This document shows, one piece after another, positions 16,610 through 38,831 of a stretch of DNA of 48,106 bases; the first letter of the stretch is position 1; every line of letters begins with the position of its first letter. The position numbers and the translations under genes were made by a program. The notes beneath the pieces are model-generated. The model had not been told where the DNA came from. It worked only from the letters and a program-made list of their open reading frames with translations, and searched no databases. The stretch lies in NCBI GenBank assembly GCA_945860565.1, contig CAMAQS010000010.1, positions 1-48,106 on the forward strand. Reading direction: 5' to 3'. The stretch comes from Chitinophaga pinensis. Its GTDB lineage: Bacteria; Bacteroidota; Bacteroidia; NS11-12g; UBA955.

Positions 16610-16616
16610 GGTGATA

Positions 16617-16624
16617 CAAAACTA
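16617..16624 (-). promoter_or_regulatory. Candidate -7 box upstream of the 16609 T9SS gene
   Basis: TAGTTTTG on the minus strand matches TAnnTTTG and ends seven bases before the ATG at 16609. No good TTG is seen at the -33 distance. Confidence 0.3.
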
Positions 16625-16705
16625 GTTAGAGAATTGACCATGGATGATTACCGAATTGTGAAAAAACCGTGAAAATTAACCAAAATCCCTAACAAAAATT
16701 TAACA

Positions 16706-17083: not shown

Positions 17084-17088
17084 ATTTT

Positions 17089-19486: not shown

Positions 19487-19488
19487 CT

Positions 19489-21308: not shown

Positions 21309-22210
21309 TTAATTTTAAGAGGTTGATAATAATGAAAATACAATTTGGAAACTATTTTGTTCCATGATTTTTGAATGGTTGAAATTATTCTTTTTAATGA
21401 TTGTTTTTTTTGTTTCGGGGGATTTTCTAACTCGCTTGGAGTATAACCAAATTGCTGGGCCATTTCGAGCACTTCATTCGATAAATTAAAGTGAAAATCC
21501 GCATCGTTTTTCCATAAGTTCAGTGATTCTCTGGACGCTTCATTTCCCATTTTTGCATCATATTGTAGACCAATAAACTTGCAAACAGTCTTAAAACAAT
21601 CTTGGGTATTCACCACCATTTCTTCATATTTAAGCAACAAAAATTGATCATCGCTTAAATCTCTTGAGAATTCAATTAGGTTTTTGTGAATGTCCATCCA
21701 ACCGTATTGACGTTTTTCAGGTGGCGTGTGAAACAGTTCTTGAGCAGAATACAATACAGACATTGGATTACGCACTAATCCAATTATTTTAACATCAAAT
21801 TCGGTAGTATTCATCCAAGTCTTAAACAAATCCAATGCAGCGGTACTTGCCAATAGCTGTGGTGATTTTTCGAAAAATACCGGATTTGCAAACTCTTTAC
21901 ACAACGCTTCCCATCCCCCAAAAACCAAATCAGAATTATTATCGGGAATTTCCCAGTTTAGAACATTCATTTTTACGGTGTCTACCAACAAAGTCAGGGC
22001 ATTATTTACACTGCCATAGCCTTTATACAAATTTGATGAGGCTTCACCAGTATTTAGAATCATAGCCCCTTTTAACCAGTGATGGGTTTCTAGGTATCGG
22101 TGGGAGGAATAGTTAACTGTTTGTATTGAGGGATGTTTTAACAATTCTCGTTGAAAAAAGGTTGATCCCGATCTTTTGTCTGAAAGTAAAACTACAACGG
22201 TGGGTTTCAA
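21284..22210 (-). CDS. Sulfotransferase family protein (1 of 4)
   Basis: This 308-residue PAPS-dependent sulfotransferase candidate has the 5'-phosphosulfate loop LSDKRSGSTFFQ at residues 9-20 and a 3'-phosphate-binding motif LVRNPMSVLYSAQ near residue 143. Such enzymes transfer sulfate to hydroxyl or amino groups of glycans. It lies between an O-antigen ligase-like gene and a GT2, so the acceptor is probably the polysaccharide or its lipid-linked intermediate. The start is TTG in a TTGA overlap with the upstream gene. The C-terminus is basic. Confidence 0.85.
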   Translation of the reverse strand: MKPTVVVLLSDKRSGSTFFQRELLKHPSIQTVNYSSHRYLETHHWLKGAMILNTGEASSNLYKGYGSVNNALTLLVDTVKMNVLNWEIPDNNSDLVFGGWEALCKEFANPVFFEKSPQLLASTAALDLFKTWMNTTEFDVKIIGLVRNPMSVLYSAQELFHTPPEKRQYGWMDIHKNLIEFSRDLSDDQFLLLKYEEMVVNTQDCFKTVCKFIGLQYDAKMGNEASRESLNLWKNDADFHFNLSNEVLEMAQQFGYTPSELENPPKQKKQSLKRIISTIQKSWNKIVSKLYFHYYQPLKIKWKNRKFN

Positions 22211-23619: not shown

Positions 23620-23621
23620 AT

Positions 23622-24701
23622 TTAGGTTAAGCGTTGGTACAACTTAATGTAGTTGTTTACCATTTTGGTGAGCGTAAAATTTTGTCCATGAAGGTGTAGT
23701 TTTTGAATCAAAAAACGAAAATTACTTTCAGTAGACAACAAGTTTTCAATTCTATCGTATAATTCCTGTGGACTGTCGGAATTAAACAAAACATGTTGTT
23801 CTACCTCAGGATGAGCCAATTCTTTAAGTCCATTTACATTTGATACCAATGCCGGCAGTCCCATTTTAATGGCTTTTAAAGCAGACAATCCAAACCCTTC
23901 ATAAAACGAAGGCATTATAAAAATGTGCGAGTCGCGCATGAATCGTTCTGGTTCGTGTTGATATCCCAAAAAGTGTACATTCTTTTCCACCCCGTATTTT
24001 TTACAAACACTTAATAACTCAGAAATATGGCTTCCAGTACCTATAATTTGATATTCAACATTCCATCCATTTCCCTTTAATTTAGATACGACTTGTATGG
24101 CCAATTCATAGTTTTTTAAAGGGATTAATCTGCCAATTGACACCAACTTTAAGGTTTCAGATTTTGTAGGGAATGGGATTACCGTAATTTCTGTTGAATC
24201 ATCTAAACCATTGTAAATGACTGAAATTTTTGAACTAATTTCATGCAACCAATTAAACAACGCCATTTGCGTTCCTAAACTTATAGCTGCAATTAAATCA
24301 ACCTTTTTATAAATAAACTTATCTATCATTTTACCATACCACTTATCGCGTCGGTTGTTATTGGTAGAATGCTCAGTAAACAAAATTTTATTTGAAATAT
24401 AACCCAATCGTTTAGCAAGTGTAACATAAAGCACAGCAGGAAAAAGGTGAACATGAATAACCGTTGAGGGCTCTTCTTTTTTGATTCTTTTTACTACTTT
24501 TCTAAACGCGCTAAAGCTATATAATTTGGCATTTAATGAACGGCATTTAGAAACAACAGGATCACCCCCAAGCATGGGCGAAATACCCACCAATTCAGCA
24601 TCTATATTTCTATTTAACAACTCTTTGTGTAAGTTCAAGCAAATGTGCTGTGCCCCGCCATTACTTAGATTTGTATCGTTTATTATTTGTAAAATTTTCA
24701 A
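23622..24701 (-). CDS. Glycosyltransferase family 4
   Basis: This 359-residue GT-B enzyme begins MKILQIINDTNLSNGGAQH, the GGA acceptor loop of GT4. The donor half begins near residue 180 (LKLVSIGRLIPLKNYELA) and contains YEGFGLSALKAIKMGLPAL, an EX7-type motif in which the second acid is replaced by lysine (SALKAIK), a possible loss of the standard EX7E glutamate. This may reduce or alter activity. The start codon is TTG because the family N-terminus starts exactly there. Confidence 0.88.
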   Translation of the reverse strand: MKILQIINDTNLSNGGAQHICLNLHKELLNRNIDAELVGISPMLGGDPVVSKCRSLNAKLYSFSAFRKVVKRIKKEEPSTVIHVHLFPAVLYVTLAKRLGYISNKILFTEHSTNNNRRDKWYGKMIDKFIYKKVDLIAAISLGTQMALFNWLHEISSKISVIYNGLDDSTEITVIPFPTKSETLKLVSIGRLIPLKNYELAIQVVSKLKGNGWNVEYQIIGTGSHISELLSVCKKYGVEKNVHFLGYQHEPERFMRDSHIFIMPSFYEGFGLSALKAIKMGLPALVSNVNGLKELAHPEVEQHVLFNSDSPQELYDRIENLLSTESNFRFLIQKLHLHGQNFTLTKMVNNYIKLYQRLT

Positions 24702-24709
24702 TTTAATTG

Positions 24710-25942
24710 TTATTTATTTTTAACGAATTTTATGACCTTTTTTATCCAAAATTTAAATTGATTTTCATATTGTAGAGATGAAAAATTCTCGTCAATTTTA
24801 AAATCACTCCAGCTTTTAGGTTGTTCAAAGTTAAGGGGATGTTTATTGATTTCGCCAAACATTTTTGCATATTTCGCAGCACAAACATCAGAATCAAAAT
24901 GTTGTTGTGCATATTGTTGTATTCTCTTTCTAAATAAAGGCAGCAAGGTAAAGTTTTCATGGATTTCTGCGAGTTTTTCAGCAAACTTCTTTGAATCATC
25001 CATTGGAATGATAAATCCAGTTTCACCATCATGAATTAAAAAGTCTGTTATGCCGTCAATAAGCCATGAAACAGGTATACAACCCGCCATCATCGCTTCT
25101 AATAAAGCATTTGGACATCCCTCAAAATGAGAAGTAAATAAAAAGACATCCACTTCATTTAAAAAACCAGGAATTTCTTGGGGTGTTATTGCGCCTAAAA
25201 ATTCAATATTCTCAAAGCCTCTTAATGACTTTAATTCGTTAATTAATTGTAGTTTGTGTTTGCCCTTTCCCGCAATTTTCAGAGTATAAGGAATATTTAA
25301 CTCCTCAAGATATTTTAGTATAACAGGAATATGTAAAACCCCTTTTTGAGTGTGTTCAAGACGACCTAAAAATCCCAACTTTAGAGGTGTATTTTCTATT
25401 TTGGGAAGTTCACCGACTGGTAAAAATCGATACTTATCAATTCCATTGGGAATGATGCGAATAATATTTGGATCGGCGTTGTATTGATTCACCAAATCAT
25501 CTCTCAATCGTGGAGTTAGGGCCACAATTTGCTCTATTCTTTTGCCGCCTGATAACACAATTTTATAACCATGATCGAAGGCATTGGCGGCTCTAGAAAT
25601 CACGCTAATGTTTGTTGGCAGATGTGGAATGGCGGATAAAATGGCTTCTGAATTTACTCCAATTACAAATCGGATGTTTTCCTTAACACACCAATCAACA
25701 AATGTTTTTGCTTGTTTTTTTACTGATAAAGTATTTTTTGCCAACAATACACATCCTTCATCGGCAAACTGAGGATCCCATAAATCGGATTGTCTTAAAC
25801 CAATGCTTACACAGATTAATTGATAGCCTAGCTTAAGTAATGCCTTTCGTTGATTCTTATAAAAAGTAAACGTCCCACCATCTTTGGGAACGCTGCCGTA
25901 CGCAATTTTAGCGGGCAAATTTAAGGATTGTAGGTTCTCCAT
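24710..25942 (-). CDS. Glycosyltransferase family 4
   Basis: This 410-residue GT-B protein has the acceptor half opening KIAYGSVPKDGGTFTFYKN. The donor half near residue 190 has LKLGFLGRLEHTQKG, then FEGCPNALLEAMMAGCIPV (EX7E) near residue 290 and HDGETGFIIPMDD. All catalytic hallmarks of a retaining GT4 are present. The last 50 residues are basic and aromatic and may bind the membrane. Its ATG overlaps the preceding sulfotransferase gene by 22 bp, a sign of compact co-translation. Confidence 0.9.
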   Translation of the reverse strand: MENLQSLNLPAKIAYGSVPKDGGTFTFYKNQRKALLKLGYQLICVSIGLRQSDLWDPQFADEGCVLLAKNTLSVKKQAKTFVDWCVKENIRFVIGVNSEAILSAIPHLPTNISVISRAANAFDHGYKIVLSGGKRIEQIVALTPRLRDDLVNQYNADPNIIRIIPNGIDKYRFLPVGELPKIENTPLKLGFLGRLEHTQKGVLHIPVILKYLEELNIPYTLKIAGKGKHKLQLINELKSLRGFENIEFLGAITPQEIPGFLNEVDVFLFTSHFEGCPNALLEAMMAGCIPVSWLIDGITDFLIHDGETGFIIPMDDSKKFAEKLAEIHENFTLLPLFRKRIQQYAQQHFDSDVCAAKYAKMFGEINKHPLNFEQPKSWSDFKIDENFSSLQYENQFKFWIKKVIKFVKNK

Positions 25943-26820
25943 GAATTCAAAGATTTATTTAGTAAACCTTCTAAATTTACGATTTCATTTTCATAATATT
26001 CCTTCAAATCCAACCAAATATCATAGTCCATTTTTTCAGATTTAACGGCATTTTCATAAACCGTTTTTCTCATTTTTTGCCTAATAACAGTATTGGAAAT
26101 CAATTTCTTGAGTATTTTATTAATTCCATTGTGTTTAATAAAAAAAGCCAAAAATGGATTTCTAATGGTTCCACCTTGTTGAACATTTATAATGGGTAAT
26201 GAAATATTTGGATCAACTTTTAACCAAATTAGAATCTCTTTAAGAGCAACAGAAGGGTTGTTTTTAAAATCATCAAACTGAATGACTTTTACATTTTCTG
26301 CGCCAAAAATCGACTTGAAATGATTGATTTTATCAGCGTAAAAACCTTTGCTTAATTTACTTTTGTTAGGGACATTTTCCTTGTTTTCTATGTAATAATC
26401 TTCGAATGAACTTGAATAATTGCCTGTTCTTTTTGCCAATTGGTATTCTGAAAAAAACCGGTCTATTGGATTGCGAACCAATACGAGAATTTTAGAATTG
26501 GGACACTCTTTGTGAATGATTGATGCCGTGTCTGGACGATAAATATAATGTGAAGATTCGCCTATTATTTTAAATCCCTCGGCTTTGTCAAATAAAGAAT
26601 AATAGGCTTTAGGGGTTCTATATTTTCCTTTGATTAAATAGTTTTCATACGCTACTCGATTTTCATGATTTGTTTGTACTTTTTCCAAAAGCATTTGAGC
26701 TACAAAATATTGTGGCTCCTTAATATCACTCATGAAAATTTCAGGATGTGCTTTTAATGCATTGTGAATGGTAGTTGATCCCGCTCGTTGTGCGCCAATG
26801 ATAAAAAAGTTTGGCTTCAT
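25921..26820 (-). CDS. Sulfotransferase domain protein (2 of 4), NDST/HS-sulfotransferase-like
   Basis: This 299-residue protein begins KPNFFIIGAQRAGSTTIHN, where GAQRAGSTT is the PAPS 5'-phosphosulfate loop. KEPQYF near residue 37 matches the substrate-cleft motif of heparan-sulfate-type sulfotransferases, and LVRNPIDRFFSEYQLA near residue 112 is the 3'-phosphate-binding motif. Bacterial relatives sulfate glycans or lipids in the cytoplasm using PAPS. It overlaps the next sulfotransferase gene by 4 bp, so two sulfotransferases are translated back to back. Confidence 0.92.
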   Translation of the reverse strand: MKPNFFIIGAQRAGSTTIHNALKAHPEIFMSDIKEPQYFVAQMLLEKVQTNHENRVAYENYLIKGKYRTPKAYYSLFDKAEGFKIIGESSHYIYRPDTASIIHKECPNSKILVLVRNPIDRFFSEYQLAKRTGNYSSSFEDYYIENKENVPNKSKLSKGFYADKINHFKSIFGAENVKVIQFDDFKNNPSVALKEILIWLKVDPNISLPIINVQQGGTIRNPFLAFFIKHNGINKILKKLISNTVIRQKMRKTVYENAVKSEKMDYDIWLDLKEYYENEIVNLEGLLNKSLNSWRTYNP

Positions 26821-27671
26821 TCCTTTTTTCTAGACCTTTCAAATATTTGGTTGTAATTCCGGCTGTAAACAACCTTCGAATTGTAATTTCTGACTTTTTT
26901 CCAAAAATAATAAGGCAAAATCCAATCCCTCCTATTAAACCAACGAAAATCATACTGAATCGCCGATTTTTTGGGATCTAAGCGCATGGCATTGCCTGTG
27001 AGTAAATGGCTCTTATCATTCTCGAGTTTTGACAATTCAAGAACCTGAGGTTCACCAATGAATTCACAAATGTCATTCAAGGCGAGTTTAGGAAACATGC
27101 ACAATTCCTCATAACCCAAATTAATATAATTCATTGACTTGGATGACAAATAATCTTGGATTTTTTTATTCTGATTGTACCAAGATCTGGCATGTTTCAG
27201 GTTTGCAAAGCGGCGGTATTTTCCTTTTTGTTTGGCCCTGTCAATTTGGGAAACAATGTAAGATCGAATGTCTTTTATCAAGTGAATAATGTACAATTCG
27301 ATGTCATTCAAATTCTGAATTTCTTTAATTGCCGGTAAATATTTAGACGAGTCTATCAAAAATGCATGCTTTCCATAAACCGTTATAAAATGGTCCAACA
27401 TTAGAGAATATGCTTGGTTGTATGATTTTACATCATTAGAGCTCCAAATTATAAATATTTTTTGCCAAAAAACACAAACATTCCCATTCACACCACAACT
27501 GCATTTATGGTTATCAAATTGCTCGGGTTTCTCCTTAAACTTTTGGTATGTCAGATAAACTTCCCCTAAACTAACGCCATTTGGATGAGAACCAAGTACT
27601 TTGTCTAACAAGGTGGAACCGCTGTGGCTAGAACCTGAAATAAATATTACTTTGACTTTATTGGTTTCCAT
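26817..27671 (-). CDS. Sulfotransferase family protein (3 of 4)
   Basis: This 284-residue protein has the PAPS loop VIFISGSSHSGSTLLDKVL at residues 9-27 and a second-site segment HLIKDIRSYIVSQIDRAK near residue 130 replacing the usual RNP with KDI. A short cysteine cluster (CSCGVNGNVC) lies near residue 55, unusual for the family and perhaps metal-binding or structural. It differs clearly from the other three sulfotransferases of the locus, suggesting another acceptor position. Its ATG overlaps the preceding GT gene by 14 bp. Confidence 0.85.
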   Translation of the reverse strand: METNKVKVIFISGSSHSGSTLLDKVLGSHPNGVSLGEVYLTYQKFKEKPEQFDNHKCSCGVNGNVCVFWQKIFIIWSSNDVKSYNQAYSLMLDHFITVYGKHAFLIDSSKYLPAIKEIQNLNDIELYIIHLIKDIRSYIVSQIDRAKQKGKYRRFANLKHARSWYNQNKKIQDYLSSKSMNYINLGYEELCMFPKLALNDICEFIGEPQVLELSKLENDKSHLLTGNAMRLDPKKSAIQYDFRWFNRRDWILPYYFWKKVRNYNSKVVYSRNYNQIFERSRKKE

Positions 27672-28668
27672 TAAAAATAATCATTAAATCTTTTGCAATT
27701 TTTGAAGTGTTGTAAGTCTCGCTTATCATATTAAATCCTTCCAACCCAAATTGCATTCTTGTGTTTTTTTGATCAATCAGCAAAGTTAATTTTTCAATCC
27801 ATTCATGTGTATTGTTAACAATGTAACCATTTATCCCATTGTCAATTATCTCACGGTTCATTGCTACATTGCTTGATACAACTGGCAATTTCAGAGCAAA
27901 ATATTCAAGTGCTTTGAATCCACATTTGTATTTATTAAAGTCGTTTTCTATTAATGGGTAAAGACCTATGTCTATTTTATTAATTTCTTTCACTATTGAA
28001 GTAGTATCAGACCAATCGGCAGGTTGTATAAATACAGAATTCAAAGGGGAAATATCCCGCATTTTCTCAGCAAACAAAGATGTTTCATCTACCCCTATAA
28101 ACCGGAATTCAATGTTTGGATTTCCAGAAAAATGTGCAGCGATAGGCAACAAAATTTCAATTAAATCGGCTTGATAATGTGCTCCATTTCCGATCCATCC
28201 CAAACATGTTTTTTGTTTATTGTCACTTTTTACCTCCAAAATATATAATGATTCTTTTATTCCTGAAGGAATAAGATAAACCTTGGATTGAAATGAAGAA
28301 ATCCAGTTTTTTAATGTCTCACTTCCTGCGAAAACACCGTTGCTTTGAATACACAATGTCTGAAAATTACTTAATGTAATTTCGTTGTGATTTCGAGATG
28401 GAAAATCGTCAATGTCCACAAAATATGGTTTATTCAAAGCCCGAATAATCTTCGCCAAAATTAGATGTGAACGACCATACGTTTTTTGAAAAACAAATAC
28501 ATCTGAATTCCATAATTCGCGAAGTAGTTTCCAAAATTGCAATGGACTAATTTTCCATAAAACAGACACTCTATGGTTTAGTTTAATCCATTCTTCGGCA
28601 ATCCAATAAGCCCTAACCCTAGAGCTGGCTTTTGTGGCGTTTCCTAAAGCGAAAATGGTAATTTTCAA
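27658..28668 (-). CDS. Glycosyltransferase, GT-B fold (GT4-like)
   Basis: This 336-residue protein starts MKITIFALGNATKASSRVRAY, similar to GT-B enzymes that begin with a short acceptor domain. VDIDDFPS occurs near residue 90, and GWIGNGAHYQADL near residue 155 opens the donor domain. KCGFKALEYFALKLPVVSS near residue 248 is an EX7E-like region in which only the second acid is kept, so the usual pair is incomplete. The family assignment is therefore GT1/GT4-like in a broad sense. The start is TTG, coupled to the upstream gene by TTGA. Confidence 0.8.
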   Translation of the reverse strand: MKITIFALGNATKASSRVRAYWIAEEWIKLNHRVSVLWKISPLQFWKLLRELWNSDVFVFQKTYGRSHLILAKIIRALNKPYFVDIDDFPSRNHNEITLSNFQTLCIQSNGVFAGSETLKNWISSFQSKVYLIPSGIKESLYILEVKSDNKQKTCLGWIGNGAHYQADLIEILLPIAAHFSGNPNIEFRFIGVDETSLFAEKMRDISPLNSVFIQPADWSDTTSIVKEINKIDIGLYPLIENDFNKYKCGFKALEYFALKLPVVSSNVAMNREIIDNGINGYIVNNTHEWIEKLTLLIDQKNTRMQFGLEGFNMISETYNTSKIAKDLMIIFNGNQ

Positions 28669-29711
28669 AGAAAATTCAATTGATTTATGTGATTTTTAAA
28701 ATTCTTTTCTACTGAATCTTTTGTATAATTCGCCAAAATGTGGGCTCGATTTTGTGCTGTATGTGAGTCAAAAAAGTGGGGATTCGAATCGAATTGTTTG
28801 AAAATTTCATTGATTTTTTGAGTTGCTTGAATCCAATCTCCATGATTTATTTTAAAATCCAAGTTGAATTCAAAGAGTTCTTCTCCCCCATTTGCAGGGC
28901 TACCAATCACCAAACACTCCATACACATGGCTTCAGCAACTGGCAGTCCAAGGCCTTCAAATTCGCTAAATGTCAAAAAAATCAATGCTTCAGAAAGAAT
29001 TTGTTTCACTTCTTCTTGGGAATTATTTTCAATTTCTACCCATTGGTTTGCTTCAATAACCCCCGATAATTGAAGCATTTTTTTTATTCCTTGCAATTGA
29101 ATGTTCCCTCTACGGGGCATCACAACAATTTGTTTCTTTTTTTCTTTGGGGATTTTGGATTCAGAAATAAAAATGTCATCCACAAAGGCTGAAATTTGAA
29201 TTTGCTTAAGTTTATTACCAAAAATATGGATCGAATACTCTGCGTTTAACTTTGAGAAATTTAATATGCCTGTTTTATTGTCATTGGAAAGTTGCAATTT
29301 TTGCAAAACATTAAAATTTTGCTTTAGCAAAAAAAAGGCATTCTGATTTACTATCCATTTATTAAAAGATAGATAAACGGGTGAATCCAATTGATTTAAA
29401 AAAGTTTCCGGAAAATACAAAATGTCGGACTCTGGATTTAGTGTAAGCGGTTTCACCCCTTTAATAAAACAGCGAACATTAAACAAAACCTGTTTCATTT
29501 GGTCTTTGAATCCATGGGATAATCCATAATTAAAAAGGCATGCAATACGCGTTTTATGTTCAAACCAGCTTGAAGTGAATTTGGGATTCTGATGAATCAA
29601 ATATGCGTTTTGACCTTGGGAATTTAGAAAATCCACCAGCCAATAGAGCATTTTTCTACCGCCAGAAGGGGTATTGATGTCTCTACAAAAAACCAAATGT
29701 CGTTTTGCCAA
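28665..29711 (-). CDS. Glycosyltransferase, GT-B fold (GT4-like, divergent)
   Basis: This 348-residue protein opens with RHLVFCRDINTPSGGRKML, an acceptor-side GG loop. The donor half near residue 195 has KQIVVMPRRGNIQLQG, and FSEFEGLGLPVAEAMCMEC near residue 255 is a clear EX7E motif, so it should be an active retaining GT4-like enzyme. The donor-binding helix is short. The start codon is TTG placed immediately after the TAA of the preceding sulfotransferase gene, with no gap. Confidence 0.82.
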   Translation of the reverse strand: MAKRHLVFCRDINTPSGGRKMLYWLVDFLNSQGQNAYLIHQNPKFTSSWFEHKTRIACLFNYGLSHGFKDQMKQVLFNVRCFIKGVKPLTLNPESDILYFPETFLNQLDSPVYLSFNKWIVNQNAFFLLKQNFNVLQKLQLSNDNKTGILNFSKLNAEYSIHIFGNKLKQIQISAFVDDIFISESKIPKEKKKQIVVMPRRGNIQLQGIKKMLQLSGVIEANQWVEIENNSQEEVKQILSEALIFLTFSEFEGLGLPVAEAMCMECLVIGSPANGGEELFEFNLDFKINHGDWIQATQKINEIFKQFDSNPHFFDSHTAQNRAHILANYTKDSVEKNFKNHINQLNFL

Positions 29712-30509
29712 TTAAGGGTTTAATTTATAATACTCTTCTAAATATTCTTTTATATGCGGAATTTTCAAGTTTTCGTAAAACCCACTTGAATTTTCACTTG
29801 GGAATTCTAAATTGGGATCTAATTCCAACCCTAAAAAATTACTGCAAGTAGGAATAACTATCTCTTTAAATGTTTTAGGTGTAGTTAAATCTTCGAATTT
29901 CAAAAACAGTACATTCTTTTCATTAAAAATAGACAAAATAAGTGCTTTGGTTTTTTGAAATTCTCCTTTTCGAAGGGCTAAAAAAACGGGATTTTCAGAT
30001 GTTTCCTTTTCAAAAAAGTTGGTAATATTGAATTTTGGATTTTCTTCCATCCATTTTCTCACTTCCATATCATAATCCGTTTTTGGAAATTTATACACTA
30101 CATATTTGTAAAATTTGTAGGCACTAAAAAACCGTTCTACTGGATTTCTTTCTATGAAAATGATGCGTGCATTGGGATTGTAATCGGCAATGCGTTGCAG
30201 TGCCAATTCACTAAAACCATAGTTGGTTGAAGAATCAATCAAATACTTTGGATTGCGCTTAAATCGGATGTCATAGCGGTAACTTTTTTCATAAAACGAA
30301 TGGTCGTTTTGATTAAATCTATCGGAGTTAAAGTAATTTACCTCTTTACCTAAGCGACTATTTATAAATCCATTATGCATTCTTAAAAATTGATGAAAAC
30401 TGGTTGTTCCACATTTTTGCTCACCCACAATAAATAGATTTACTTTCAATCGAGAGTCTCGTTCAAAGATGATTTTTTTTGTAATCTGTTTTATTTTCTC
30501 CTTAAACAT
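29712..30509 (-). CDS. Sulfotransferase domain protein (4 of 4)
   Basis: This 265-residue protein has a basic N-terminal tail followed by LFIVGEQKCGTTSFHQFL, the PAPS loop at residues 28-38. KEVNYF near residue 55 and FIERNPVERFFSAYKFY near residue 113 give the cleft and 3'-phosphate-binding motifs, as in heparan-sulfate-type enzymes. Like the other three, it should use PAPS in the cytoplasm. It lies between two glycosyltransferase genes, which favours a polysaccharide acceptor. The next GT gene begins directly at its stop. Confidence 0.9.
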   Translation of the reverse strand: MFKEKIKQITKKIIFERDSRLKVNLFIVGEQKCGTTSFHQFLRMHNGFINSRLGKEVNYFNSDRFNQNDHSFYEKSYRYDIRFKRNPKYLIDSSTNYGFSELALQRIADYNPNARIIFIERNPVERFFSAYKFYKYVVYKFPKTDYDMEVRKWMEENPKFNITNFFEKETSENPVFLALRKGEFQKTKALILSIFNEKNVLFLKFEDLTTPKTFKEIVIPTCSNFLGLELDPNLEFPSENSSGFYENLKIPHIKEYLEEYYKLNP

Positions 30510-30514
30510 AATTT

Positions 30515-31483
30515 TTACTTTTTCAAAATATTGCGTTTTATCCCACCCACAAGCAAATATAGTTTAGCCCCATTTTGTCCAAGTTTGGCTACATTTTTAC
30601 GAATTTTACCTTTGGTATTTAGTTGAGCTGTCACTTTATTGGCCAAAACTTCACATTGTTGCGCATGGTCTTTCCAACCCATCGAAATGGATCTTAATTT
30701 TAACCCAAACAACCGAGATTTAAATTCTTGGAACACGTTGTTAGGTATATTGGGCACAATGGTACTCATTTGCACCAGTTGTGCTTCGCAGTATATGCGC
30801 CATTTTCTACCTTCATGAGAGGTCAATTTGTTGGAAATTCGGTCCTCACCAGTTCGGGTTGCAGTGGCCAAAATCTCCCGAATAGAAATGGGGTTTTTAG
30901 CCAATATCACCGCTCTTTCCATGTATAAACGGTCTTCAAAACAGGTCATTTCTACGTTCCAATTTCCAATTTGAACCGCCAACTCACGGGTTAAACTGCC
31001 ACGTAAGGTATTGGCTCCCAATAATCCCCGATAAACCAGATGGACCATATTTTGACCTTCACGGCCGAAAGATTTTTGGACAATTTCGCCCGTATTTTCA
31101 TCAATGCCTTGGAATCCAGTTTGGATATAATCGGCTTGATGTTTTGAAAATGTATTTTTTAATGTTTCCAATCGTTTTGGGAAAATGGTATCATCTGAAT
31201 CCAAATATTGGATATAAAATCCAGAAGAAAGTGCCAATGCCAAATTTCTGGCAGACGAAACTCCCCCATTTTCTTTGTATTGATACAAAATCGTGAAGTC
31301 TTCTGCTTGATGGTCTGATTGCCATTTCTGAACGACCTCTTTGGTATGGTCTGTGGATCCATCATCTACTATAACTACCTCTAGGGGTCTGTATGTCTGT
31401 TCTTTTACCGAATTCAACGTTGTAATTAGTGAATCTGCCCTATTGTAAGTAGGGATTAAAACACTAAAAACATCATCTTTCAT
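30515..31483 (-). CDS. Glycosyltransferase family 2
   Basis: This 322-residue GT-A enzyme starts with FSVLIPTYNRADSLI, has VVIVDDGSTDHTKEV near residue 35 and YLDSDDTIFP near residue 95. CFEDRLYMERAV near residue 190 includes the ED base motif. The ATG at 31483 is chosen because it places the first beta strand at residue 4; a GTG at 31516 would add eleven residues without family support. A gap of 67 bp separates it from the upstream GT2 gene, one of the larger gaps in this locus. A role in repeat-unit synthesis is inferred from context. Confidence 0.9.
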   Translation of the reverse strand: MKDDVFSVLIPTYNRADSLITTLNSVKEQTYRPLEVVIVDDGSTDHTKEVVQKWQSDHQAEDFTILYQYKENGGVSSARNLALALSSGFYIQYLDSDDTIFPKRLETLKNTFSKHQADYIQTGFQGIDENTGEIVQKSFGREGQNMVHLVYRGLLGANTLRGSLTRELAVQIGNWNVEMTCFEDRLYMERAVILAKNPISIREILATATRTGEDRISNKLTSHEGRKWRIYCEAQLVQMSTIVPNIPNNVFQEFKSRLFGLKLRSISMGWKDHAQQCEVLANKVTAQLNTKGKIRKNVAKLGQNGAKLYLLVGGIKRNILKK

Positions 31484-31550
31484 GATTTGTTGTAACAATG
31501 AACTACTTGAAGGCACTTGATAATTAGATAGAATTCAGCACGCAAAATAA

Positions 31551-32261
31551 CTACTTAAATGTGGTCTTAATTTTGTGCAAATAATACCAAAACATTAATT
31601 CTTTGTGTTGTGAACGTATGGTGTTTTTTTGAGACATGAGAGCCACCCTATTTGTAGCGCTTATGCCACCCATTTGTAACGTTGCAACGGTAACCCCTAC
31701 ATAATTAAATTTCCACTTATTCTTAACAGCCCTGATTAATAGGTCGTAATCAGCAGCCAATGTAAATTCTATGTTGTAAGAAAGTTTACGGTGTAAAACT
31801 GAACTAAAGAACAACGCTTGATGGCAAATCATGTGACTTGCCAATCCACGCAAATTAATGCGTTTGTTATGGTACGAAATGAGAGCGCCTTTAAGCACAT
31901 TTCCGTAATAATTTTCAAGGGGATTTGCCTGATTCATGACTGTTTGAATGACTTCAGGACCAGAAAAAACATCCCCCGAGTTCAAAAAAACAATAAAATC
32001 TGAACCTATTGAGATATGTTTTAATCCAATGTTCATAGCATCGTAAATACCCGAATCTTGCCCAATAATGGTGGTGGTAATGAGCTTGTTATACGTTTTG
32101 ATTATGTGCAAAGACTGATCGGTGGATCCGCCATCTACAAACACAACTTCGACATTTTTATAGGATTGACTTTCAATACTTTTAAGGGTTGCTTCCAATC
32201 CTAAATCGTTGTTTAGATTTACAGTTATAATAGACACTAAAAATGGTAATTGGAGTTCCAT
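31551..32261 (-). CDS. Glycosyltransferase family 2, WcaE-like
   Basis: This 236-residue short GT-A protein starts VSIITVNLNNDLGLEATL, with EVVFVDGGSTDQSLHI near residue 38 and FIVFLNSGDVFSGP near residue 91. The GGSTD and LNSGD variants of the usual DD/DxD motifs are typical of the WcaE-like branch of colanic-acid-type clusters. HQALFFSSVLHRKL near residue 150 and AADYDLLIRA near residue 172 complete the family pattern. Its ATG overlaps the stop of the ABC transporter gene by one base, indicating coupling. Confidence 0.9.
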   Translation of the reverse strand: MELQLPFLVSIITVNLNNDLGLEATLKSIESQSYKNVEVVFVDGGSTDQSLHIIKTYNKLITTTIIGQDSGIYDAMNIGLKHISIGSDFIVFLNSGDVFSGPEVIQTVMNQANPLENYYGNVLKGALISYHNKRINLRGLASHMICHQALFFSSVLHRKLSYNIEFTLAADYDLLIRAVKNKWKFNYVGVTVATLQMGGISATNRVALMSQKNTIRSQHKELMFWYYLHKIKTTFK

Positions 32262-34096
32262 TAGAATGTTTGCAGCGACACCATGCGTTGGAATGTGGCA
32301 TTGCGTTTATTGAGTTCATCAAAAGTTCCAGTATCTCTAATTTCGCCTTTTTCCATTAAAACAATGTTATCAGCATGTTGTATGGTAGACAAACGGTGGG
32401 CAATAAAGACCAAGGTAATTTCACCCTTTAAATTATTCAAGCTTTCTTGTATGCTGTTTTCTGTTTCAGAATCCAAAGAGGCAGTCGCTTCATCTAATAT
32501 GAGTAAATCTATGTTCTTATAAAGTTCTCGTGCTATCGAAACCCTTTGTTTTTGTCCACCCGATAATTTTACACCATTGTTGCCAAGCTGTGTATTTAAT
32601 CCATCTTTTAATTTGTAGGCAAATGAATCAACCGCGGACATTTTAAGGACCTTTTCAAAATGATTTTTTTGTTCTAATGTTTTAACCGGTTGCCACAATG
32701 TAATGTTGTTTTCCAAGGTATCGTCAAAAATCACCTGCTCTTGTGTAATGTATCCAATTTTAGACCTCCACTGCCTAACATCTATTTCATTTATTGAAAT
32801 TCCATTTATTAGAAGTTCTCCTTTATTTGCAAACAACAATCCTGCCAAAACATTCACCAACGTGGTTTTTCCAGAACCACTTTCGCCAACAAATGCAATG
32901 GTTTCTTTGGCGTTTATTTGCAGGGATATGTCTTTGAGTATGGAATGATTTGAAGTGTATTCAAATTGAATGTGTTTGAATTCAAGCTGTTTAAATGGCA
33001 GCAATTCGGATTTTATATTGAGCACTTCCTTGTTTCCCTTCAATTCTTTGAGAAATGATTGAAGTTGATGCAGTGAGCCTATGCCATTTAAATAGGAATT
33101 CCAGTTATTCTGTACCACCAAAATTGCACTTAAAGCACGATAAAACAACAATAAACTGAGTAGAATCTCGCTCATACTGCCATGTAAAACATTTACTTGC
33201 AGTAGAATAACCAAAATCACTATTGAAACAGAAATGGTTTCGCGACCTCCAGTTAGAATGGCTGCATATTTGCCACTCAATAATTGTGACTTTTCTATTT
33301 CTTGGATTTTATTCTTGATTTTCGCCACAAAGAACAAAGATGAGTTGGTGGCTTTTAAATATTTATAGTGATGAATAAATTGACTCAGAAATCCTTGAAA
33401 TTTATGACCTTGAACGGAGATGTCTTTTGAAAGTGATTTTGTCTTCTTATATAATTGCTTATACAAGAGATTTGACAAAAGTCCAATGCATAAAATCAAA
33501 ATCGAAAATTGGGCATTTGCTAAAAATGCCAAAACAATATAAACTAGAATCATTACAAAAGCCTGAGCGGCTTTAAAGTAGTTCTCAAAAGAAACGATGG
33601 CACGATTTACTTCAACAGTCATGGTATTTTGGACTTTGCCCATATCCGCTTGAATGAAATAGGCATATTGCACCCGTTCAAATCCGTTTACCATTAGATT
33701 GCGGATGCGCTTCATAAAAAACACCCTACATAAGGTTCTATAATAGACTTCTATAAACCGTGTGATGCCTTTTATGATAAAAATGAGGAGCATAAACAAC
33801 AAGATGCTGTTTAAAGAATTGTTGATAGACAATTCACTCATCATTTTTTGTATGAAATTGTCTTGTACAGCGGGTGACACCATGGTATTGGTATTTGCGC
33901 TGCTATTTAACAATGGCACGAACATGGATATGCCTATGCCATCAAAAAGTGCTGTTATGAAACTAGTCAAAAGTATAAGAAATACTTTAAATCTTAAGTG
34001 TTCATAAAAGAAGAAAAATGTGCTGAAATGGGTTTTTAAAAATCGTCTCAAAACTGGTGCAGTAAAGTTTAAAAAAAGCTTCGCCGCTTGAGTCAC
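32261..34096 (-). CDS. ABC half-transporter (MsbA/PglK type) for lipid-linked glycan
   Basis: This 611-residue protein fuses a six-helix type IV transporter domain (about residues 40-340) to a nucleotide-binding domain. Visible motifs are Walker A GESGSGKTT near 405, the Q-loop YITQEQV near 450, the signature LSGGQKQR near 512, Walker B LLILDEATASLD near 530 and the H-loop IAHRLST near 565. It should work as a homodimer in the inner membrane. Next to glycosyltransferases and a Wzy-like protein, it most likely flips lipid-linked oligosaccharide, as PglK does, which would explain the absence of a Wzx gene. The start is GTG; the frame closes two codons upstream. Overlap with the next gene is one base. 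Confidence 0.9.
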   Translation of the reverse strand: MTQAAKLFLNFTAPVLRRFLKTHFSTFFFFYEHLRFKVFLILLTSFITALFDGIGISMFVPLLNSSANTNTMVSPAVQDNFIQKMMSELSINNSLNSILLFMLLIFIIKGITRFIEVYYRTLCRVFFMKRIRNLMVNGFERVQYAYFIQADMGKVQNTMTVEVNRAIVSFENYFKAAQAFVMILVYIVLAFLANAQFSILILCIGLLSNLLYKQLYKKTKSLSKDISVQGHKFQGFLSQFIHHYKYLKATNSSLFFVAKIKNKIQEIEKSQLLSGKYAAILTGGRETISVSIVILVILLQVNVLHGSMSEILLSLLLFYRALSAILVVQNNWNSYLNGIGSLHQLQSFLKELKGNKEVLNIKSELLPFKQLEFKHIQFEYTSNHSILKDISLQINAKETIAFVGESGSGKTTLVNVLAGLLFANKGELLINGISINEIDVRQWRSKIGYITQEQVIFDDTLENNITLWQPVKTLEQKNHFEKVLKMSAVDSFAYKLKDGLNTQLGNNGVKLSGGQKQRVSIARELYKNIDLLILDEATASLDSETENSIQESLNNLKGEITLVFIAHRLSTIQHADNIVLMEKGEIRDTGTFDELNKRNATFQRMVSLQTF

Positions 34097-34116
34097 AATG
34101 GCTCAAAAAGACTTAA

Positions 34117-34142
34117 CAAAATTACCTTGATGAAAAAGGCAA
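34117..34142 (-). promoter_or_regulatory. Candidate promoter for the ABC transporter and following genes
   Basis: In the 103-bp gap between the BY-kinase and the ABC transporter, TAATTTTG (34117-34124, minus strand) matches TAnnTTTG and lies 20 bp before the GTG. A TTG at 34140-34142 is 15 bp upstream, slightly short for a -33 element. It may give the operon a second transcription start. Confidence 0.35.
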
Positions 34143-34199
34143 TCTGTTAATAAAGTATGAATGATATATTGCTATAATGTTTCCCATGTTGCCTTATTG

Positions 34200-36668
34200 T
34201 TACTTCTTAAATCCGAAAAAAGCCTTGAAGGGATCAATTAAAATCAATTTCCATTTCTTTAAAAAAGCATTAGAATTGGATGTTTGTTGAAAGTAACCGT
34301 AACCATCGTTGTGGTACATATAATTATAATTCCCTGATTCGTTGTAATTAAGATAACTGTAGTCGTAACCATAACCATATTTACCTATTCCCATAGCGAT
34401 TCCATTCATCACAATTGCAGAATGTTTAAACCGTTTTTCAGTAAAAATTTTGTTCAACAGATTCTTAACAGAAGACCTTGGAGTATAGCGGTGTCGCACA
34501 ATAAACAAGGCAGTATCGACAAACTTGCTGAATTCAAAAGCATCTGTAACCAATCCAACAGGCGGACAATCTATAATTATATAGTCATAGAGGTTTTTAA
34601 GCTCTGCAATAAGCAATTCCATTTTGCCATTAAGAATTAATTCAACGGGATTGGGAGGAATGGGACCTGAAGGAATAATGGTTAGATTCTGATATTCGGT
34701 GGCTTCAAATAAAATATCATCTAAATTAGCACCACCAGACAAATAAACACCTAAACCCATCCTGCGAGTCAAGTTAAAATGTTTGGTGATATTCGGTTTA
34801 CGCAAATCCGCTTCAATAAGCACTACTTTTTTGCCTGTAACGGCGTAAGCGATGGCTAAATTGGTAGATACGAAAGACTTGCCTTCTGCTGGAATGGAGC
34901 TGGTTACAAGTATTACTTTCTGTTCATTGGTATTACCGTAAAAACTAAGATTGGTTCTTAGGCCACGAATTTGCTCAGAAATAACACTCCTGCTTCCATC
35001 CTTCAAAACAATGGGAGAAATGGTATCCACATACATTAATTCTCCGATAACAGGCATATTTGTTCTGGCAGAAATTTCACCAAAACTCATGATTTTTGTA
35101 TTGCGTATGCTTTTTAGAAAGAGCACAAAAAGAACAACAAAAACAAATCCAAACACAAATCCAAAAATCACCAATGATCGACTGGGTTTTATGGCTTTAA
35201 CCGATTCTGTTTCTTCTAAAATGCGGACATCGCTCAACGTCCCAGCCATTTGAATAGACGCTTCCTCTCTTTTTTGCAATAAATAAACGTATAATGTATT
35301 TTTTATGGATTGTTGGCGCGTAATATTTAACAAAATCCTTTCTTTTGCTGGGATTGATTTTATTAAACGACTATATTCCTGATTGTTACTTGAAAATTGA
35401 TCGTTGATTTCATTTTTTAATACCATTAAATTTTTGCGGGTATTGTTTACATTTTCTATAAGGGATTGTTTTTGGATTTGTGCTTCCTTCATGGCCAAAC
35501 GGACATTGTGGTTGTCTTTTCCGTTTAATTCTAATAAGGAGCGATATTTCAAATCGGCTTCGTTCAGCTTTTGTATGTAGACCTCGAAGTGTTCATCTTG
35601 CAATCCGACCAAACTAGGAGATAATTCGACATGGTTAATTTTGCCTTGCACGTATTTTTCAACTTCGGAAAGCATGAGCAATTTGAGGTCAATTTCAACA
35701 ATACGGTGGTCTTCATCTTTGATTTTCTCAAGAAAAAGTTCTGACTCTCTAGACAACACATTTATGTCGCTGCTCTTTTTGAAGGATTCCATTTGCCTCT
35801 CAACCGTATCCAAATCATCACCCACAAATTTTAATCTATTGTCAATAAAGTCTACCGTATAAACTGCCTTTTTACGTTTTTCATTTTGGGTTTCAGTTTG
35901 ATAACTTTCCAAAACCGATGCCAACATTAACTCACCATACGTTTGGGAAACGGACTCAGCAAAAATGCGAATGATGGAAGCCTTTTTGTCTTTACCAACC
36001 CGAATTTGTTTGGACAAATACTTTGCGGCTGTTTTTAAATCACTTACTACAAAATAGTTATCTGATTTTTGGTGGTGGTTTTGAAAATAGACACTTGATT
36101 TAGAGAATTTGATGTCTGTATTTTTCGAGAACAGAAATTTGTTGCCATTGAAATTTACTATTTGGTCATAGGCTACTTTTTTATTCTGAATGAATAATTC
36201 CCCTAAATCGTTCAAGTAAAAATTCAATCTTTGTTTTTTTGTTTTTTCGGGATGGATGATTTTGACAGTAAAGGGCAAATTGTCAATTGGAATAAACTCC
36301 TCTCTAAATCGGGATTCACTTTGTATTTGAATTTGGTAATTGCATAAAATGGCAGCTCCTTTCATAACACTTAGTCCACGAATAATGAGCATTTCATCAT
36401 CGATATAGGTGTTGGATTTTCCGCTAACTGCTTGTTTTAATAAGTTATCTGTAGTTTGCGCTTCATCTTTTAGAAGTACACCTTTACTGATTTCAAAAAT
36501 GGTGAGTTGATTGCTCAGGTAAACTCTACTGGATATTATACCCAAAATTAGAGCCAGCAAAACAACGGGCCAATAAGGCAAAAAATCACGTAGTACGCTT
36601 TCCTTAAAATTGGTATCCGTTGATTTTTCTGAATCGTTATTCCAATTAAAATTCTGAAAATTACTCAT
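34200..36668 (-). CDS. Polysaccharide co-polymerase / BY-type tyrosine autokinase (Wzc-like)
   Basis: This 822-residue inner-membrane protein has a transmembrane helix near residue 37, a long periplasmic region with coiled coils (about 250-480), a second transmembrane helix near 510, and a cytoplasmic BY-kinase. The kinase shows Walker A SSIPAEGKSF near 590, A' LIEADLRKP near 620 and Walker B YIIIDCPPVG near 690. The C-terminal tail is rich in tyrosine (KYGYGYDYSYLNYNESGNY), the usual autophosphorylation cluster. Such proteins control chain length and export of capsule or exopolysaccharide together with an outer-membrane Wza channel; no wza gene is seen here. It is the first gene of the polysaccharide run and is divergent from the transposase. 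Confidence 0.93.
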   Translation of the reverse strand: MSNFQNFNWNNDSEKSTDTNFKESVLRDFLPYWPVVLLALILGIISSRVYLSNQLTIFEISKGVLLKDEAQTTDNLLKQAVSGKSNTYIDDEMLIIRGLSVMKGAAILCNYQIQIQSESRFREEFIPIDNLPFTVKIIHPEKTKKQRLNFYLNDLGELFIQNKKVAYDQIVNFNGNKFLFSKNTDIKFSKSSVYFQNHHQKSDNYFVVSDLKTAAKYLSKQIRVGKDKKASIIRIFAESVSQTYGELMLASVLESYQTETQNEKRKKAVYTVDFIDNRLKFVGDDLDTVERQMESFKKSSDINVLSRESELFLEKIKDEDHRIVEIDLKLLMLSEVEKYVQGKINHVELSPSLVGLQDEHFEVYIQKLNEADLKYRSLLELNGKDNHNVRLAMKEAQIQKQSLIENVNNTRKNLMVLKNEINDQFSSNNQEYSRLIKSIPAKERILLNITRQQSIKNTLYVYLLQKREEASIQMAGTLSDVRILEETESVKAIKPSRSLVIFGFVFGFVFVVLFVLFLKSIRNTKIMSFGEISARTNMPVIGELMYVDTISPIVLKDGSRSVISEQIRGLRTNLSFYGNTNEQKVILVTSSIPAEGKSFVSTNLAIAYAVTGKKVVLIEADLRKPNITKHFNLTRRMGLGVYLSGGANLDDILFEATEYQNLTIIPSGPIPPNPVELILNGKMELLIAELKNLYDYIIIDCPPVGLVTDAFEFSKFVDTALFIVRHRYTPRSSVKNLLNKIFTEKRFKHSAIVMNGIAMGIGKYGYGYDYSYLNYNESGNYNYMYHNDGYGYFQQTSNSNAFLKKWKLILIDPFKAFFGFKK

Positions 36669-36988
36669 TAATGCCTTATAAACGGAATTGATTCCTAATT
36701 CAAATTAAGGCAAACATTTAAACAAATGAAAGCAACCACTCATTAGGCAATCAATTGATAACATTTCAATAATATTTAATTAACAACAAACCCGCCCTCG
36801 GGTTTCAACCCGAGGCATAGGATATAAAAATTAAACTAATTTACAAATTAAACTATTTGCAAAAATCCCTAATGAAATATTTATGTCTTATAATTAACGC
36901 AAAGGGAAACTAAAATTGGATAATTAAAATTGTTTCATATTTGATACAATCATTAAAAAGAAACACAATTAACAGTGTAAACCAAATC
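36669..36988. other. Intergenic region between wzc-like gene and transposase
   Basis: This 320-bp AT-rich stretch separates two divergent genes. It contains one REP unit (36796-36815) and a 10-bp palindrome ATCAATTGAT at 36750-36759. No exact TAnnTTTG box was found for the kinase gene; TTAATTTG on its strand differs by one base. No further gene is evident. Confidence 0.6.
36796..36815 (+). repeat. Single REP unit upstream of the transposase
   Basis: CCTCGGGTTTCAACCCGAGG forms a 9-bp stem with a two-base loop and is followed by GCATA-like sequence, as are most units of the downstream array. It lies 173 bp before the transposase ATG. Confidence 0.9.
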
Positions 36989-37420
36989 ATGTCACGTTCA
37001 TACACCAATATAATCGTCCACCTTTTATTAGGCACAAAACATAAAAGAAATTACATACAGCCGCAAATTGAAAAACAACTATATGAATTCATTACGGAGC
37101 AATTAATCCAACAAGGATGCCGTGTAATAATCCTCAATGGGGTGGCGGATCACGTTCATTGTTTATTTGTTTTAAATCCGCAGAAGGCCCTTTGTGATGT
37201 TGTGAAGCAAATAAAAGGCAGTAGTTCGTATTTTGTAAACCATTCAAATCTAATGAATACACATTTTAGATGGCAACGCGAATATGGTGCATTTTCTGTT
37301 TCTAAATCGGCAAGTAAAATTGTTCACAATTATATAAAAAACCAGAAAACGCACCACACCAAAAAATCATACGAAGACGAATTTGATTTTTTCACCCATT
37401 TGCACCATGGTACCCCCTAG
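36989..37420 (+). CDS. REP-associated tyrosine transposase (IS200-like, HUH/Y1)
   Basis: This 143-residue protein belongs to the Y1 transposase family (IS200/IS605 TnpA-like). ADHVHCLF gives the metal-binding HUH pair H55 and H57, and NYIKNQ gives the catalytic tyrosine Y115. WQREYGAFSVSKS at 95-107 is the conserved central segment of this group. Such enzymes nick single-stranded DNA at hairpins. The ATG at 36989 is preferred because the family begins SRSYTNIIVH; the 36941 frame adds 16 unrelated residues. The TAG stop is directly followed by the first palindrome of the array, and another palindrome lies upstream. No tnpB and no IS ends other than these palindromes are present, so it looks like a domesticated RAYT rather than an intact insertion sequence. 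Confidence 0.9.
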   Translation: MSRSYTNIIVHLLLGTKHKRNYIQPQIEKQLYEFITEQLIQQGCRVIILNGVADHVHCLFVLNPQKALCDVVKQIKGSSSYFVNHSNLMNTHFRWQREYGAFSVSKSASKIVHNYIKNQKTHHTKKSYEDEFDFFTHLHHGTP

Positions 37421-37606
37421 CCTCGGGTTTCAACCCGAGGCATAAAAAAATACCCATATGTCCTCGGGTTTCAACCCGAGGCATAAAAAAATACCCATAC
37501 GATATCGGGTTTCAACCCGAGGCATAAAAAAACACCCATATGTCCTCGGGTTTCTACCCGAGGCATAAAAAAATACCACACAGCCTCGGGTTTAAACCCG
37601 AGGCTG
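37421..37606 (+). repeat. Array of five REP palindromes at 41-bp spacing
   Basis: Palindromes start at 37421, 37462, 37503, 37544 and 37584, giving periods of 41, 41, 41 and 40 bp. Units 1 and 2 read CCTCGGGTTTCAACCCGAGG. Unit 3 has a degenerate left arm (TATCGGG). Unit 4 has a TTCT loop. Unit 5 is a 26-bp perfect palindrome (37581-37606) with the TTTAAA centre also found at 9085-9106. Linkers are 20-21 bp and nearly identical, of the form CATAAAAAAATACCCATATG. Conserved linkers and self-complementary repeats separate this from a CRISPR array. Confidence 0.95.
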
Positions 37607-37757: not shown

Positions 37758-38831
37758 ATGAATATTCAAAAAACACTTTTTTCTTTTGTTGCGGCAAGCA
37801 TCGTTACTGCCGCCGGATTTGCGAACACAAACACTATGAATACACAGAATAATGAAAACCCCACGCCTACCAATGTTCCGGCAATGGCAGATGGGATGTA
37901 TGCAAAAATGACCACCAATAAAGGTGTAATTTTATTGCAACTGCATTTCGATAAAACCCCTCTTACTGTATGTAATTTTGTGGGATTGGCTGAAGGAAGC
38001 ATTAAAAACAATGCAAAACCTGAAGGAACTCCTTATTATGACGGATTGAAATTTCACCGTGTGATCGCCAATTTTATGGTTCAAGGCGGAGACCCAATGG
38101 GAACCGGTGCAGGTGGACCTGGATACAATTTCGAAGATGAATTTGACCCAAGTTTAAAACACACTGGCCCAGGTATCCTTTCTATGGCAAACGCCGGTCC
38201 TGGTACCAATGGCAGTCAGTTTTTCATCACACATGAAGCAACTCCATGGTTAGATGGAATGCACACTGTTTTTGGAAAAGTAATTGAAGGACAAACTGTT
38301 GTAAACGCCATTCAACAAGGCGATAGCATTGTTAAGTTAGAAATTATTCGTGTTGGTAAAGCCGCTAAAAACTTCAAAGCGAACAACGATGAATTCAATA
38401 AATATAGAGAAGAGATGAAAGGAAAAGCAAAAAATGCGGTAGCCGCGGAAGCTGCGAAATTTGAAAATTGGGTTATGACAACTTATCCAACAGCTAAAAA
38501 AACAGCTTCTGGTTTGTATTATGTAGCGGAAGTAGAAGGAACAGGTACAGCGGTAACTCCAGGTAAAACCGTTTCAGTGCATTATGCTGGAAAATTAATG
38601 GATGGTACAGAATTCGACAATTCTTACCGCAGAGGTCAACCAATAGAATTTAAAATTGGTGTTGGTCAAGTTATTCCAGGTTGGGACGAAGGAATTGCCT
38701 TAATGAAAGTGGGTTCTAAATACAAACTCATTATTCCATCTGAATTGGGCTATGGCAAACGCGGTGCGGGTGGGGTAATACCTCCAAATGCAACGTTGAT
38801 TTTTGATACAGAATTGATGAATGTTAAATAA
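37758..38831 (+). CDS. Cyclophilin-FKBP fusion peptidylprolyl isomerase
   Basis: This 357-residue exported folding catalyst carries two unrelated isomerase domains. A signal-like hydrophobic segment ([17 protein letters not shown]) is followed by a cyclophilin domain at about residues 45-205 with [15 protein letters not shown] (catalytic Arg), GSQFFIT and [12 protein letters not shown]. An FKBP domain at about 245-357 carries [34 protein letters not shown] and [16 protein letters not shown]. Both active sites look intact. The order cyclophilin then FKBP is the rarer 'CFBP' arrangement. The ATG at 37758 is chosen because it directly precedes the signal peptide. A strong hairpin terminator follows 18 bp after the stop. 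Confidence 0.93.

Follow-up and report, generated by a model that had tools for sequence, protein, structure and literature searches.

A putative REPtron-like pairing of a class-1 Y1 transposase with its own palindromes in a Bacteroidota genome

Repetitive extragenic palindromic (REP) repeats are widespread in bacteria, and the enzymes described for them are Y1 transposases of class 2 that go with a GTAG-type tag. Class 2 TnpA_REP/RAYT proteins are defined by a Y---NP motif, whereas subclass 1.2 is defined, on 101 sequences, by Y---Q--HH, DH[IV]H, WQ, and a length of about 148 aa (PMC6006769). Quentin et al. (2018) tabulate subclass 1.2 as 'REP: no' and as generally without typical IS200 terminal structures, and their automatic REP search demanded a GTAG or GTGG tag (PMC6006769). 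The locus considered here lies in a 48,106-nucleotide (nt) stretch, referred to as the window, of contig CAMAQS010000010.1 of the Chitinophaga pinensis assembly GCA_945860565.1, and consists of a Y1 HUH gene, TnpA_Y1, with palindromes on both sides (Table 1). Judged from sequence, the gene and its palindromes probably form a REPtron-like pair, in which a class-1 ('subclass 1.2'-like) clade of Y1 HUH endonucleases goes with cognate palindromes.

The window protein resembles subclass 1.2 in its DHVH, WQ, and YIKNQK-HH motifs, its length of about 145 aa, and its occurrence in Bacteroidota. In contrast to the published 'REP: no' entry, clades A and B of the present tree, which are likened to subclass 1.2 by motifs, are systematically flanked by palindromes. 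As in the class 2 TnpA_REP/REPtron systems, the gene is flanked by its own tagged hairpins (one upstream and five downstream in the window), dispersed copies, inverted doublets, and double-foot forms occur in relatives, and hairpin and protein vary together. In contrast, the protein is on the IS200 side, with Y---Q--HH where RAYTs have Y---NP, the tag is ATAG or ATTG rather than GTAG/GTGG, the centre is TTCA/TTTA/TTAA, and there are hardly any dispersed copies in the window genome. The GTAG/CGTC-tagged repeats of Di Nocera et al. (2013; PMC3733652) share short stems, a tetranucleotide tag on one foot, and dimers of opposite orientation, whereas the tag here is ATAG and the CGTC repeats of that paper had no dedicated transposase. 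IS200/IS605 elements (IS608, ISDra2; subclass 1.1) belong to the same Y1 family and have hairpins on both sides. Unlike them, the window genome has no near-identical copies and no TnpB was seen by eye beside the gene, while relatives mostly keep their place in Flavobacterium and have mostly inverted hairpins.

On these sequence comparisons, the system is best described as a variant of the REP/REPtron kind that stands outside the RAYT family. It is not a RAYT by family because three marks of one are missing: a Y---NP motif, a score above the cut-off of the RAYT model, and GTAG as the tag. A literature search at title and abstract level, covering few subscription papers, found no work tying subclass 1.2 or Bacteroidota class-1 Y1 genes to tagged palindromes, which agrees with the view of the first-pass annotation that such a system looks little described in Bacteroidota. 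If the pairing holds, enzymes would be paired with palindromes on both sides of the Y1 family and the published 'no REP' entry would be corrected. Moreover, culturable Flavobacterium would offer ready enzyme-hairpin pairs for direct tests of guide-tag recognition.

The Y1 protein and the palindromes of the window

The first-pass annotation had described a RAYT/REP system with a lone 143-residue Y1 protein carrying H55/H57 and Y115. The protein is as described, and the three residues are invariant across an alignment of 15 sequences (the window protein and 14 relatives). It scores 84.5 bits against Pfam Y1_Tnp and carries DHVH, WQ, and YIKNQKTHH (Y---Q--HH type), the last in place of the Y---NP motif of class 2 RAYTs, which is missing. 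It passes the NCBIfam IS200 model NF033573 (66.2 bits vs a cut-off of 55), which is matched by 15/15 members, and fails REP_Tyr_transpos (22.8 bits vs 80). The closest solved structure is PDB chain 2xm3 (E 4.8e-9), which we take to be ISDra2, and the ISHp608 structure matches at E 4.6e-6. The RAYT label thus did not hold: on the tree the gene belongs to clade A, with class-1/IS200-side features, and not to the class 2 RAYTs. What stood is a single-copy HUH transposase with palindromes of its own, REPtron-like across its relatives.

Comparison with PHROGs returned 'transposase' families only. Plasmid or phage carriage was considered and rejected; 71 plasmid and 4 phage records match the window protein, all below 60% identity, and the annotation of the plasmid matches, among the 40 of 71 listed, is mostly IS200/IS605 family transposase.

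The described arrangement of one palindrome upstream and a regular tandem of five downstream was borne out, with spacings of 41, 41, 41, and 40 nt. Allowing at most 3 mismatches, the palindrome has 13 matches in the window on both strands, whereas 100 dinucleotide shuffles gave no match. Folded as single-stranded DNA, the array reaches -55.9 kcal/mol, and its shuffles average -18.8 (z -11.6). Across the 2.39-Mb genome (an 88% complete draft in 156 contigs), 6 places hold the exact core TCGGGTTNNAACCCGA, a count that leaves out the variant at 37544 because it falls outside the pattern. All 6 places are on the contig of the window, and the copy at 9086 is the only one away from the neighbourhood of the gene. 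GTAG tags are found in 0/7 window copies. A known RNA family was ruled out for the palindromes, as no Rfam family reaches its gathering score (best 23.8 bits vs 58).

The window genome contains three Y1 genes, each of a different clade, and no near-identical copies. The second (L007/L146; contig C48, 15920-16369) belongs to the Q clade and has its own palindrome, CTCAGGGCTTTGCCCTGAG, around it; genome-wide, the core of CTCAGGGCTTTGCCCTGAG matches at 9 places (at most 2 mismatches), 8 of them on contig C48 around this gene. Hairpins of the type CGTCCC..GGGAC are interspersed with the CTCAGGGCTTTGCCCTGAG palindromes on that contig. The third Y1 gene (L008/L176) belongs to clade B. The clade profile matches in none of 13 congeners, so the gene was gained in this lineage or lost from the others.

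Hairpins, tags, and co-variation among relatives

Relatives were found in 172/395 genomes of the phylum search, including that of the window, and 30 loci were taken from it. Named genomes contributed 79 loci and searches with the two paralogues 60 more; the resulting 169 loci became 160 once near-duplicates were dropped. The tree of 164 rows holds clade A with 81, clade B with 31, the Q clade with 19, and a TYTQ grade with 23; four rows (L114, L165, L166, L171) fall outside all four groups, and two short proteins (L098, L183) were dropped. In a careful tree of 74 rows, clades A and B stand on one side of a branch with support 100/98, and clade A alone has 92/93. Clade A loci also occur in metagenome-assembled genomes named Neomarinimicrobiota, Ignavibacteria/Ignavibacteriales, Cloacimonadota, and KSB1, and relatives in named isolate genomes also have palindromes beside their genes.

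Strict hairpins were defined by a stem of at least 8, a loop of at most 2, a centre of TTCA/TTTA/TTAA/TGAA/TAAA, and a distance of at most 300 nt from the gene. The survey omits 2/81 clade A, 2/31 clade B, and 2/19 Q rows, which have short flanks or are not locus rows. Strict hairpins are present at 71/79 clade A loci (47 upstream, 53 downstream, 29 on both sides) and 25/29 clade B loci, vs 2/17 Q and 0/23 TYTQ loci. The loci were picked by protein similarity and the permitted centres were derived from the same loci, so the exact fractions lean in favour of the strict definition. Clade A loci hold 2.01 strict hairpins each, vs 0.0006 in shuffles. Where long flanks are available (62 clade A loci), hairpins number 1.84/kb in the 500 nt before and 2.65/kb in the 500 nt after the gene, and their density drops more than 100-fold beyond 1 kb (12 hairpins in ~950 kb, 0.013/kb). 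Hairpins lie at median positions of -62 upstream and +33.5 downstream. At L033 (G112), a clade A frame has an internal stop, and long palindromes (38 and 54 nt) still flank it on both sides.

The hairpins are oriented by their loop or centre, and the orientation counts, taken over all 160 loci, include related loci that are not independent. Of the hairpins nearest to the gene, those upstream are + at 51 loci and - at 8, and those downstream are - at 44 and + at 18; at loci readable on both sides, 27 pairs are opposite and 9 have equal orientation. Oriented alignments show conservation at the 5' foot (clade A: ATAG; clade B: AATTG-like) but not at the 3' foot. Both feet of hairpins with the symmetric centre TTAA are tagged, as ATAG...CTAT, which recalls the 'double foot' REPs of Quentin et al. 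(PMC6006769). Near clade A genes, NTAG stands at the 5' foot of 61/130 hairpins vs the 3' foot of 5/130. Dispersed copies were sampled as 40 stretches from four genomes, of which 35 hold hairpins by the stem criterion (the others are L243, L250, L253, L263, and L282), and have NTAG at the 5' foot in 46/59 and at the 3' foot in 2/59. ATAG is the commonest tag, with 50/130 near clade A genes and 43/59 among dispersed copies, and GTAG accounts for 4/130 near clade A genes. In clade B, ATTG (20/64) and ATAG (16/64) are found. The stretches of G170, G206, and G222 contain 13 inverted doublets, of which 11 measure 41–61 nt and two measure 86 and 93 nt from centre to centre; single copies and doublets alike keep the tag. 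Centres such as CTTTAG/CTGAAG, with tags ATTG or ATAG, are seen in clade B (L008/L176, L177-L205).

Hairpin arms and proteins vary together. A Mantel test of arm similarity against protein identity gives r 0.357 for clade A (n=73) and 0.244 for clade B (n=27), with 0/2000 permutations reaching the observed r; shared descent alone can account for part of this correlation. Genome-wide, a generic palindrome, CCYNNGRTTNNAAYCNNRGG, is matched in 84/395 genomes, most often in G170 (36), G316 (30), and G174 (28), while its read-backwards control gives 0 or 1 per genome. At least 3 generic palindromes are present in 9/17 clade A genomes vs 22/377 others (Fisher p 5.6e-7). The classes and counts of this comparison were read off by hand from the phylum search and the genome-wide palindrome count. 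Clade A genomes are the 17 behind L020-L034, L041, and L042, with the window genome excluded; they were placed by tree, or by sequence where a near-duplicate stood in, and clade A genes among unfetched matches may be missed.

By analogy with TnpA_REP (PMC8266576), the enzyme would bind the hairpin as single-stranded DNA and on one strand, the tetranucleotide at the 5' foot would act as a guide for the choice of the cut, and the tyrosine would form the covalent joint. Cutting and rejoining may then spread hairpins or doublets, as is thought for TnpA_REP with GTAG REPs. The window copy may be weakly active, since its tags are mostly degenerate and stand in a 41-nt tandem array.

A further set of hairpins, GTCCC..GGGAC, is found within 500 nt at 9/23 TYTQ loci (28 copies; e.g., L119, L127, L044, L168) and at 3/19 Q loci. 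At the TYTQ loci none occur beyond 1 kb, a control that is small because most such loci have flanks of only 1.5 kb. They appear to be another repeat partnered by a class-1 Y1 gene. A link to the CGTC repeats of Di Nocera et al. is not claimed, as those have 8–9-bp stems and other features (PMC3733652). With looser hairpins (loops of 3–5 nt), 11/19 Q loci hold one within 300 nt. In G266 (L283, L293, L300, L304, L307, L309, and others) there are 15 Y1-profile matches, fragments included, and the palindromes next to them are of several kinds; identical copies with their flanks, as a sign of movement, were looked for in one pair, L304/L307, which is 73% alike.

Points against the proposed pairing and rival explanations

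Several observations weigh against a REPtron-like pairing. The palindrome has not spread in the window genome, ATAG stands at the 5' foot of only the 9086 copy (6/7 window copies lack it), and the upstream and downstream copies are in direct, not inverted, orientation. The RAYT model is matched by 13/15 clade members at E of at most 0.001 (best 1.1e-9). Among relatives, 8/79 clade A and 4/29 clade B loci have no strict hairpin, half of the near-gene hairpins are without NTAG, and no inverted doublets were seen in the G111 stretches. The genome counts also hold exceptions: 8/17 clade A genomes stay below 3 generic matches, a shortfall due in part to stems that the pattern misses, and the 22/377 genomes with at least 3 have no fetched clade A gene. 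When 13 of these 22 were searched again with the clade profile, some Y1 match appeared in 10 and none in G104, G114, and G157. At least G066 and G353, counted among the others, have Y1 genes (outside the tree) with matching palindromes alongside, which may account for some of the others. In G222, 16 copies go with only a clade B gene and a fragment; palindromes can therefore persist without their enzyme. The first-pass annotation had named three findings that would speak against its proposal, and they fared differently. Absence of the palindrome elsewhere in the genome is nearly the case here (6 exact-core places on one contig), while relatives hold many generic copies. Palindromes in genomes lacking the transposase were found in part, as just described. 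Many identical copies with flanks were not seen, the three Y1 genes being from three clades.

An ordinary IS200-type insertion sequence, in which TnpA stands alone, the hairpins are the left and right ends, and the unit moves by single-strand transposition, is an unlikely competitor. The IS200 model results and the regular distance of the hairpins on each side agree with it, and the 13 congeners without a clade-profile match are consistent with a gene gained here or lost there. However, the window genome has no near-identical Y1 copies, and a second clade A gene per genome is not found among the matches listed. The ends of IS200/IS605 elements are read on one strand, whereas here the closest upstream and downstream hairpins mostly oppose each other (27 pairs vs 9), and many tagged copies lie far from the gene. 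Moreover, the gene keeps its place in most Flavobacterium pairs. Among the 18 clade A loci in this genus (all clade A members of 19 named Flavobacterium loci), neighbours on both sides are common to 129/153 locus pairs and at least 2 neighbours to 134/153 pairs, so in this genus the gene has mostly been passed on without moving. An ordinary multi-copy insertion sequence is thus rejected for the window genome, with its three Y1 genes from three clades, and is unlikely for Flavobacterium. In one of these loci (L053), the clade A gene lies between open reading frames (ORFs) that by eye resemble a TrhO-type rhodanese and a U32 peptidase.

It is considerably less probable that the palindromes are transcription signals (terminators, attenuators, or mRNA-stabilising hairpins) unrelated to the enzyme. 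Such a role would suit the 9086 copy, as the near-palindrome that contains it occupies the gap between two convergent stop codons, and the hairpins of the dispersed-copy stretches, 58/61 of which lie outside stop-to-stop frames of at least 110 codons. Terminator-like sites also exceed expectation (5 vs 1.0 in shuffles); all of them, however, are on the minus strand and none on the plus strand of the gene, and intrinsic terminators for the gene are rejected on this ground. The Rfam result likewise gives no support, the protein tree predicts which loci hold hairpins (TYTQ 0/23), and a one-sided ATAG tag and a correlation between arms and proteins are unexpected of terminators. Least probable of all, and hardly credible, is a passive tandem array, in which slippage or assembly made the 41-nt repeats, the transposase is nearby by chance, and the 28.7-kb stretch described below is a false join at a palindrome. 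The inner 73-nt windows over successive array units are 93 and 97% alike with spacers included, as from slippage, and the genome is an incomplete draft of many contigs. In contrast, the palindromes recur beside the genes of relatives in named isolate genomes, and an exact match between the two joints extends over 24 nt at most. Such a match is short for an assembler to join on, and a false join at the palindrome is therefore unlikely. The REPtron-like pairing remains the probable reading. A far broader proposal appears doubtful, namely that a second large REP family, separate from the known RAYTs, arose from IS200-side Y1 enzymes, that it has tags of its own (clade A, ATAG; clade B, ATTG or ATAG; Q and TYTQ, perhaps GTCCC..GGGAC hairpins), and that its palindromes can bracket and move large segments such as the polysaccharide block of the window.

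The split YjbR-PPIase pair

The genes for a YjbR-family protein and a peptidyl-prolyl isomerase (PPIase) are parted by 28.7 kb in the window (9063-37757), which hold a receptor/type IX secretion system (T9SS) block, a polysaccharide cluster, and then the Y1 unit. By eye, a YjbR-like ORF stands directly 5' of the PPIase gene in 9/9 congener loci, and by blastp the two flanking genes of the window adjoin in 6/6 congener stretches of the site. In total, the adjacency holds in 10/10 congeners examined, of 13 in the set (outside these are G398, G403, and G414). The window thus differs from these congeners in two ways at once, by the Y1 gene, which they lack, and by the 28.7-kb split of the site. 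Counterparts of the segment 9134-36668 are found elsewhere, largely colinear in G396 and in part in G401. At the left joint lies the only stray palindrome, 23 nt past the YjbR stop codon, and at the right joint the Y1 unit. Going by position alone, palindromes at both joints are an unlikely coincidence, which we estimate at ~1 in 10,000. The stretch appears to have been relocated or acquired, and the palindromes may have taken part in the move. The first-pass annotation had also stated that neither tnpB nor cargo is present. By eye, no TnpB was seen among window ORFs of at least 110 aa, with only 11 window proteins compared to Pfam; 'no cargo' may be questioned because of the 28.7-kb stretch.

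Table 1. Features of the Y1 locus and the split gene pair (positions in the window)
Feature	Position	Strand	Remarks
YjbR-family gene	8715..9062	+	left side of split pair
69-bp near-palindrome, 89% self-match	9063..9131	.	contains seventh copy 9086-9105; ATAG...CTAT on both feet ('double foot')
Receptor/T9SS block and polysaccharide cluster	9134..36668	-	27.5 kb between two palindrome sites
Upstream palindrome CCTCGGGTTTCAACCCGAGG	36796..36815	+	173 nt 5' of ATG; 5' foot CCGC, not ATAG
TnpA_Y1 gene, 143 aa	36989..37420	+	HUH H55/H57, Y115; clade A; subclass 1.2 motifs
Downstream palindrome 1	37421..37440	+	immediately 3' of stop codon; 5' foot CTAG
Downstream palindrome 2	37462..37481	+	5' foot ATGT
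Downstream palindrome 3	37503..37522	+	damaged outer stem/foot (TATCGGG); 5' foot ACGA
Downstream palindrome 4	37544..37563	+	variant centre TTTCTA; 5' foot ATGT
Downstream palindrome 5	37584..37603	.	symmetric centre TTTAAA, inside 26-nt perfect palindrome; 5' foot ACAG
Cyclophilin/FKBP PPIase gene	37758..38831	+	right side of split pair; ATG 37758 by reading, ORF list starts at TTG 37710

An apparent ORF of 108 aa on the minus strand (37471-37797) spans the array of palindromes, which most likely gives rise to it as an artefact.
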